Below the pieces are notes generated by a model, which was given only the letters and a program-made list of their open reading frames with translations, was not told where the DNA came from and made no database searches. Position numbers and translations under genes: made by a program. From assembly GCA_014879445.1 (NCBI GenBank), contig JACSSC010000024.1:1-64000 (forward strand): DNA of 64,000 nucleotides, in the 5' to 3' direction. Positions 29,956 to 32,028 of this stretch are shown piece after piece. Origin of the DNA: Candidatus Competibacteraceae bacterium. Lineage in GTDB: Bacteria; Bacteroidota; Bacteroidia; CAIKAF01. Positions within the stretch are counted from its first letter, which is position 1. Each line of letters opens with the position of its first letter.

Positions 29956-32028
29956 ATGATGAAACGCATTACACTTCTTTCCCTCTTTTATATGCTTCTG
30001 TTTTCAGCAGCAATTTCTCAAATCATGAATCCCATCAAATGGACGTATGATTATAAAGAATTATCGCAAACTGAAGGCGAATTGATTTTTACAGCACGTA
30101 TTGATGCCGGTTGGCATTTGTATTCGCAAGAAAATCCACCTTATCCACTAGCTTTCGAATTTGACAAGAGCAGTTATTATGAACGAATAGGAAAAGTAAT
30201 TGAACCCAAACCTAAAAAATTGAATGATGAATATTTAGGTCCTGTTGCCTATTTTGAATCTGCAAAGGTTGTTTTTCAACAAAAATTCAAACGGATAAGT
30301 AATTCTGCATTTAAGGTTACTGGAATATTATATGGACAAGCATGCATGGATGATGGGGTTTGCATTCCGGTTGAGGAAAAATTCAGCTTTTCCATAGCAT
30401 CTACACAAGGTGAAGTATTACCACCTGATACAGGGTCAACGGCTGATCTTTTTATTGATTCTGACGGAGATTCAATTCCTGACCACTTGGATAAATGCCC
30501 TGATGTGCCTGGATTGTCTGAGTACGATGGCTGTAATGAAAATGTTGCTATTATCACTTCTGAAGGTCCTGAAATGTTGAGTGACGATGCTATTGCTTCA
30601 CTTGAGCCAGCTTGTGGTACAGGTAAAACCAACACAACAGCCCTATCATTTTGGGGTATTTTTATTGCCGGATTTTTAGGTGGCCTGTTTGCCTTGCTTA
30701 CACCTTGCGTCTTTCCCATGATACCGCTAACTGTTAGTTTTTTCACAAAACAAAGTAAGAATAAGGCAAAAGGTATTTCAAATGCAATTACTTATGCATT
30801 GTCTATCATCATTATTTATACAGCACTTGGATTTTTAGTAACAAAAATTGCAGGACCCGCTGCGTTAAATAGTATGGCGAGCAGCGCATTTTGGAATATG
30901 CTGTTCTTCGTCATCTTTGTTGTATTTGCTGCATCATTTTTAGGTGCTTTTGAAATTACATTGCCAAGCCGTTTTGTTAATGCGGTAGATAAAGGATCGA
31001 ACAAAGGAGGTTTGATTGGAATTTTCTTCATGGCTTTTACCCTTTCGTTGGTTTCATTTAGTTGTACAGGCCCCATTATAGGAACATTGCTTGTTGAGGC
31101 CGCTGTGAGTGGTAGTAATGCAGGTCCATTAGTGGGTATGTTCGGATTCTCGCTTGCATTGGCTTTACCTTTTGCTTTGTTTGCCATGTTTCCTGGGTGG
31201 CTAAATTCTTTACCCAAATCAGGAGGATGGTTGAATACCGTAAAAGTTACTTTGGGCTTTTTGGAGTTGGCTTTGGCGCTCAAGTTTTTCTCTGTTGTAG
31301 ATATGGCATATCACTGGGGCATCCTAAAGCGTGAAATTTTTATTGCGCTATGGATTATCATTTTTGGATTGCTTGGATTGTATTTATTAGGCACTTTTCG
31401 ATTGTCGCATGACGATGAAGGAAAACCTAAGCTTTCTGTTATGCGACTTAGCTTCGCTCTAATTTCGTTAGGGTTCTCGATGTATATGGTGCCAGGGCTT
31501 TTTGGCGCGCCGGTAAAATTGCTTAGCGGATTAGCCCCTCCATCAAATTATCGCGAATGGAACCCAACCGAATGTCCGCATGGGCTTGATTGTACACATG
31601 ATTATGATGAGGGTATGCGCTGGGCACGTCGGGATAATAAACCTGTATTAATTGATTTTACGGGATACGCTTGTGTGAATTGTCGAAAAATGGAAGATAA
31701 TGTATGGTCAGATAGCCGTATTCTGAAAAAATTACAGAATGATTATATTGTTATTTCATTGTATGTTGACGACAAATCACCATTGCCTCAAGGCGCACAA
31801 GTTAAATCATTCCGCACCGGAGAAATGCTAAAAACTTACGGAGCTAAATGGAGCGATTTTCAGGCATACTTCTTTAAAGCCAATACTCAGCCACAGTATG
31901 TATTGCTTGACCCATCCGGCAAACTTCTCGCTGCCCCTAGAAGCTATACGCCTGATATTGTAGAATATGATGCGTTCTTACAGGAGGGGCTTTGCCGATT
32001 TAATACTCGATATGGTAAGGTTAGATAA
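29956..32028 (+). CDS. dsbD: thiol:disulfide interchange protein, DsbD family, with TSP3-like linker
   Basis: DsbD passes electrons from cytoplasmic thioredoxin across the inner membrane to periplasmic thiol proteins. Order in the 690-residue protein: signal peptide (1-21), periplasmic DsbDalpha-like domain with the redox pair C130/C136 (YGQACMDDGVCIP), a calcium-binding-like thrombospondin type 3 repeat at about 167-187 (DSDGDSIPDHLDKCPDVPG), eight-helix transmembrane domain with the conserved C251 (LTPCVFPMIPL) and C370 (SFSCTGPIIG), and a C-terminal thioredoxin domain with C573-V-N-C576. All six catalytic cysteines are present. The linker repeat is unusual for DsbD; such repeats are normal in OmpA-like proteins. 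Confidence 0.92.
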   Translation: MMKRITLLSLFYMLLFSAAISQIMNPIKWTYDYKELSQTEGELIFTARIDAGWHLYSQENPPYPLAFEFDKSSYYERIGKVIEPKPKKLNDEYLGPVAYFESAKVVFQQKFKRISNSAFKVTGILYGQACMDDGVCIPVEEKFSFSIASTQGEVLPPDTGSTADLFIDSDGDSIPDHLDKCPDVPGLSEYDGCNENVAIITSEGPEMLSDDAIASLEPACGTGKTNTTALSFWGIFIAGFLGGLFALLTPCVFPMIPLTVSFFTKQSKNKAKGISNAITYALSIIIIYTALGFLVTKIAGPAALNSMASSAFWNMLFFVIFVVFAASFLGAFEITLPSRFVNAVDKGSNKGGLIGIFFMAFTLSLVSFSCTGPIIGTLLVEAAVSGSNAGPLVGMFGFSLALALPFALFAMFPGWLNSLPKSGGWLNTVKVTLGFLELALALKFFSVVDMAYHWGILKREIFIALWIIIFGLLGLYLLGTFRLSHDDEGKPKLSVMRLSFALISLGFSMYMVPGLFGAPVKLLSGLAPPSNYREWNPTECPHGLDCTHDYDEGMRWARRDNKPVLIDFTGYACVNCRKMEDNVWSDSRILKKLQNDYIVISLYVDDKSPLPQGAQVKSFRTGEMLKTYGAKWSDFQAYFFKANTQPQYVLLDPSGKLLAAPRSYTPDIVEYDAFLQEGLCRFNTRYGKVR

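Follow-up and report, generated by a model that had tools for sequence, protein, structure and literature searches.

A thrombospondin type 3 (TSP3) unit, DSDGDSIPDHLDKCPDVPGLSEYDGC (aa 168-193, nt 30457-30534), lies between the periplasmic N-terminal domain (nDsbD) and the membrane domain of a DsbD-type protein-disulfide reductase encoded in the window, i.e. the whole 64,000-nucleotide stretch of DNA that was analysed. This is a modest but genuine lineage-specific change to the DsbD tether, and the most probable explanation, with a probability of roughly 60%, is that such units act as a spacer lengthening the tether, stapled by calcium and closed by a disulfide, both of which are predicted. 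The relevant features of the window, all on the forward strand, are:

29956..32028, +, DsbD-type protein-disulfide reductase with a TSP3 unit, 690 aa (open reading frame, translation, Pfam domains over cut-off)
30019..30396, +, nDsbD-like periplasmic N-terminal domain, about aa 22-147, redox pair C130/C136 (Pfam DsbD_N, fold)
30397..30642, +, linker from nDsbD to the membrane domain, about aa 148-229 (low pLDDT; variable sequence and length in relatives)
30457..30534, +, thrombospondin type 3 unit, aa 168-193 (D168, D170, D172, D176, D179; C181, C193) (OmpA-derived model, 5wtl)
30496..30498, +, C181, first of the TSP3 cysteine pair (column invariant in eight aligned family members)
30532..30534, +, C193, second of the TSP3 cysteine pair (column invariant in eight aligned family members)
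30649..31503, +, membrane domain, about aa 232-516, redox C251 and C370 (Pfam DsbD_TM, model helices)
31573..32013, +, cDsbD-like C-terminal thioredoxin-like domain, about aa 540-686, C573-x-x-C576 (Pfam Thioredoxin_7, 3f9u)

Three Pfam domains score over their cut-offs in the host protein: DsbD_N at aa 35-144 (E = 6.3e-10), DsbD_TM at aa 236-445 (E = 1.9e-25) and the thioredoxin-like domain Thioredoxin_7 at aa 547-609 (E = 1.6e-10). In a fold search applied to the redox domains only, the nDsbD model resembles the solved nDsbD structures 6dps (E = 3.9e-5), 1jzd and 1vrs, while the cDsbD domain matches 3f9u both by fold (E = 8.7e-11) and by sequence (E = 3.2e-41). All three redox pairs, C130/C136, C251/C370 and C573/C576, are invariant in a 43-row alignment. 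Judged by its sequence, the protein is a three-domain DsbD-type reductase, predicted to transfer electrons from the cytoplasm to periplasmic clients; its reading frame at 29956-32028 is matched over its full length nowhere else in the genome, the one other match spanning aa 549-614 only. As its score against the NCBIfam model for protein-disulfide reductase DsbD (NF001419; PRK00293) is 152.1 bits, below the cut-off of 330, it is termed DsbD-type rather than assigned to that subfamily. Domain order and the three redox cysteine pairs are shared with known DsbD proteins (the solved nDsbD and cDsbD domains from E. coli and Neisseria, and the C-terminal domain 3f9u from Bacteroides), from which the window protein differs by the TSP3 unit in its first linker. 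An additional CPxGLxC-like cysteine pair, C540 to C546 (window 31573-31593), is present right before the C-terminal thioredoxin domain; it is invariant in 11 family rows, though not in the 43-row alignment, and is also found in members that have no TSP3 unit.

TSP3 repeats carry an aspartate code, DxDxD...D..DxC, which is present in the window unit as D168, D170, D172, D176, D179 and C181, and is also seen in 5wtl, an OmpA family protein. The TSP3 array of 5wtl was matched in a phmmer search of PDB sequences, with an E value of 2.3e-10 for the whole sequence and 0.00099 for the best single repeat. When a TSP3 model is derived solely from the seven units that the OmpA-like protein of this genome contains, the window linker scores 37.8 bits; when a 120-aa stretch was shuffled, the real sequence scored 39.2 bits against 9.0 for the best of 5000 shuffles, 3900 of which were listed with a score. 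The Pfam TSP_3 model gives the window unit 15.9 bits, under its cut-off of 25, and exceeds that cut-off in two of four unit-bearing relatives (31.7 in G007 and 25.8 in G004) while falling under it in the other two (21.0 in G001 and 15.7 in G013). Taking together the 5wtl match, the OmpA-derived model and the tandem copies in relatives, the identity of the unit as TSP3 is firm. An earlier note on this DNA had recognised a TSP3 repeat in a DsbD-type reductase, and its placing of the repeat, after the periplasmic redox domain and before the membrane domain, agrees with the flanking DsbD_N and DsbD_TM matches. The range it gave, 30430-30530, falls in the right region, but begins before the unit and ends 4 bases short of 30534. 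It had also counted one added periplasmic cysteine, where there are two, C181 and C193. As this pair is placed as in OmpA-type repeats, a closed structural disulfide seems likelier than a free thiol entering exchange.

The window unit and the 5wtl array share the 27-aa unit, with the aspartates and the cysteine pair in equal places. They differ in copy number, 5wtl having five matched stretches and the genome's OmpA-like protein seven units by eye, against one in the window reductase and two in most of its unit-bearing relatives; they also differ in context, the window unit lying within an inner-membrane-type enzyme. That OmpA-like protein, L181 (G000:C51, about 83873-84337, - strand), is the sole other TSP3 protein found in the window's genome, and the part of it that follows the TSP3 units is what we take to be OmpA-like. 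The window unit is identical to its seven units at 12 to 16 of 26 residues, a stretch too short for descent to be traced. Within the family, position 6 of the unit is G in 19 of 21 units, the window's own, which has S, being included in the total.

In DsbD, nDsbD is reduced by cDsbD and then reduces periplasmic partners (PMC7347389). Electrons would pass from the membrane domain to the C-terminal thioredoxin domain and on to the periplasmic N-terminal domain, and the tether would have to allow nDsbD to reach both cDsbD and its periplasmic partners. Under the preferred explanation, the low-complexity tether of one Bacteroidia clade would have acquired two tandem TSP3 units of the OmpA kind, in each of which the aspartates would bind calcium and one disulfide would close the unit on itself. 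The predicted result is a compact, semi-rigid segment that makes the tether both longer and stiffer, with a benefit that would be mechanical rather than regulatory; the window copy would have retained the membrane-proximal unit alone. This would be a linking role of the kind described for TSP3 in TraB of Myxococcus xanthus, where, in the excerpt of PMC12045341 drawn on here, short TSP3 repeats predicted to bind calcium link the barrel and the OmpA domain. The likeness lies in short TSP3 repeats that join two domains; TraB is an outer-membrane exchange protein whose description in that excerpt mentions no redox domains, which the window protein has. The NCBIfam TraB model makes a weak match to aa 156-195 of the window protein (E = 0.0028).

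AlphaFold models were made of the window protein in the 43-row alignment and of the periplasmic part of a two-unit relative, L032, in a 28-row alignment, with mean pLDDT values of 83.6 and 69.4 respectively. In the former, aa 159-202 have pLDDT below 50 except at residue 184, with higher values in the flanks, and in the latter the units average 44-52 by block, so that both models are uninformative on the unit; as each alignment contained only two TSP3 rows and no metal was modelled, these low values are no evidence against folding.

The distribution of the unit was studied in 16 genomes of the order, which all belong to one family and represent six genera. TSP3 is present in the linker in 11 of these genomes, ten having two units, 27 aa apart, and the window one, giving 21 units in total; the remaining five (G002, G010, G011, G014 and G015) have no unit. 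Zero, one and two units all occur inside one genus, and the unit-bearing genomes span three genera. The closest relative of the window protein, that of G002, is 81% identical to it and has no unit in a linker of 100 aa, which suggests that the unit is dispensable for the reductase.

Beyond the family, no TSP3 unit was present in any of 177 distinct DsbD linkers (185 in total, distinctness being judged on the last 100 residues), the best of which scored 3.8 bits with the OmpA-derived model. The 185 linkers comprise 79 from named loci and 106 from the class and phylum searches and fetches. They derive from a sample of 80 named loci, 55 class loci (15 given by the class search and 40 chosen among its listed matches, in most cases one or two from each family), 48 from the phylum search and fetches, and three more; as the sampled loci are all high-scoring, distant DsbD forms are under-sampled. 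L213, which has an unreadable linker, was left out, as were ten further linker-less loci, which are thioredoxin-only or TSP3-only matches. L032, which has two units, and whose length of 752 aa and linker are as in the family member G007, was set apart from this count. By eye, the outside linkers are low-complexity and rich in Ala, Thr, Ser, Glu, Lys and Pro.

A profile (A5) of the TSP3-plus-membrane stretch, built from an alignment of eight unit-bearing members, was also applied to 395 genomes of the class at an E value of 1e-46, a threshold under which a distant single-unit DsbD might score. Of the 77 genomes matched, the 11 unit-bearing family members, and no others, occupy the top 11 places at 287-352 bits, followed by the unit-less G002 at 235 bits. 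Among 395 genomes of the phylum, the window's, which is the family's only genome listed, came first at 287 bits, the next match scoring 172. Matches to A5 starting early in the profile (positions 7 to 47) raised the possibility of TSP3 in other families at 20 places and at a further three from the class search, none of which scores as TSP3. The idea that TSP3 is universal in Bacteroidota DsbD, which the earlier note had regarded as fatal to the observation, is thus rejected for this sample, L032 being set apart; the homologue search which it proposed for this position favours the finding and supports the rarity of the repeat. No report of TSP3 in DsbD was found among literature titles and the opening parts of abstracts, a coverage outside which most subscription journals fall.

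The history of the unit was reconstructed on a tree of 39 rows and 460 columns that runs from the first membrane helix onward, the linker and nDsbD being excluded; it includes one fragment (G003, covering 24% of columns) and a long-branched outgroup row, L074, that falls among the family. Genera g1, g2 and g5 contribute twelve rows that group as one clade (support 99/99), to which the unit is confined in this sample and within which G000, the window's genome, and G002 are sisters (99/96). Genera g3, g4 and g6 supply four rows without units, which form another clade (99/98) placed weakly beside it (65/97). On this tree, presence requires at least two changes and unit number at least three, and the simplest history fitting them would be a single gain of two units, followed by loss on the branch leading to G002 and the window. 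In the alignment, the window unit corresponds to the membrane-proximal one of its two-unit relatives, and hence it is the other unit that was probably lost. In G002, a short stretch, DTNSND, might be a remnant of a unit.

Measured between the second cysteine of nDsbD and the first of the membrane domain, the linker is 100-106 aa without units, 114 aa with one and 133-152 aa with two. The median for the named outside loci is 77 aa, from the 75 of 79 loci where a crude pattern located the nDsbD cysteines. A length-neutral replacement of linker sequence can therefore mostly be rejected, as the units mostly add length; however, once units are subtracted, the linkers of unit-bearing proteins measure 79-98 aa (87 aa in the window), somewhat shorter than the 100-106 aa of unit-less linkers, so the change is partly a replacement. 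Further along the linker, an LE..CG motif (C220-G221, window 30613-30618), roughly 12 residues ahead of the first membrane helix, contains a lone cysteine without an obvious partner. In its strict form the motif occurs in 14 of the 177 distinct outside linkers and, when variants are included, also in family members.

An alternative to a selected spacer is near-neutral turnover of the linker, whereby any hydrophilic stretch would work and TSP3, after a single entry whose source may have been an OmpA-like gene, drifts in and out. The coexistence of zero, one and two units inside one genus, and the retention by G002 of just a short possible remnant, are what such turnover would produce. Pooled pN/pS was calculated, on uncorrected distances, from six pairs of relatives, none including the window; the pairs overlap in the rows they use, and several approach saturation. 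The value for the linker outside the units, 0.29, is the highest in the mature protein (nDsbD 0.18, membrane core 0.05), but that for the TSP3 units, 0.15, is half as great, and the direction of this difference is the same in four of the six pairs. In the other two the ratio is higher for the unit than for the remaining linker (0.82 against 0.16 in G004/G009, with very few changes, and 0.22 against 0.13 in G001/G003). The spread of the unit over three genera also argues against drift, as does the invariance, in the membrane-proximal unit of eight aligned members, of D1, D3, D5, D9, D12 and both cysteines, together with the proline after the first cysteine and the glycine before the second; from the unit to the first membrane residue, a single proline is invariant in the same members. 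Part of this invariance stems from the pattern used to find units, which made D1, D12, C14 and G25-C26 obligatory and limited position 3 to D or N and position 5 to D, N or E, so that the independent evidence consists of position 9 (D in 16, N in 4 and T in 1 of the 21 units), the distance between units, and drift at the remaining positions. The unit is probably under constraint in the relatives, and near-neutral turnover is unlikely.

Calcium binding by the TSP3 repeats of bacterial OmpA reportedly depends on an intra-repeat disulfide, to go by the title of a 2017 paper by Dai et al., and the predicted disulfide of the unit here adjoins nDsbD, itself part of a disulfide reductase. The tether could consequently be gated by redox state and calcium, an over-reduced periplasm opening the disulfide, freeing calcium and loosening the tether, which would then alter the reach of nDsbD to cDsbD or to clients and provide a built-in feedback. 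Both cysteines are present in 21 of 21 units, as they must be given the pattern, and agree with such a mechanism; yet the closest relative lacks the unit and the window has one instead of two, while all redox cysteines are retained, and 177 outside linkers manage without it. A gate of this kind is rather improbable, nothing in the computed results favouring it over a plain spacer. The stronger form of the idea, in which the TSP3 disulfide, on which calcium binding would depend, is opened by the enzyme's own electrons, and the reach of the N-terminal domain is set, and electron flow throttled, by calcium together with the redox state of the periplasm, is more doubtful still. Calcium might nonetheless affect electron transfer or domain docking, as the earlier note had suggested.

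That the unit is a docking module, binding a partner such as an OmpA-like protein or a client and so bringing the reductase to it, is very unlikely: the genome's sole other TSP3 protein found is OmpA-like, which speaks for it, but apart from aspartates, cysteines, glycines and some prolines, most positions vary among members. A chance acidic stretch or frame artefact, for which only the sub-threshold Pfam TSP_3 score in the window would speak, can be practically dismissed given the shuffling result and the tandem copies in relatives.

To our knowledge, DsbD tethers have been treated as passive. The natural relatives with zero, one and two units offer a ready series in which tether length and stiffness can be set against interdomain electron transfer. 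The unit might make the shape of the reductase depend on calcium or on the enzyme's own redox state; were it sensitive to its own disulfide, periplasmic calcium would be linked to reducing power.

In one family member, G013, a second nDsbD-like match adjoins the DsbD gene (G013:C24:29747-30190, - strand), with 43% identity over aa 5-149 in an open frame of 163 aa.
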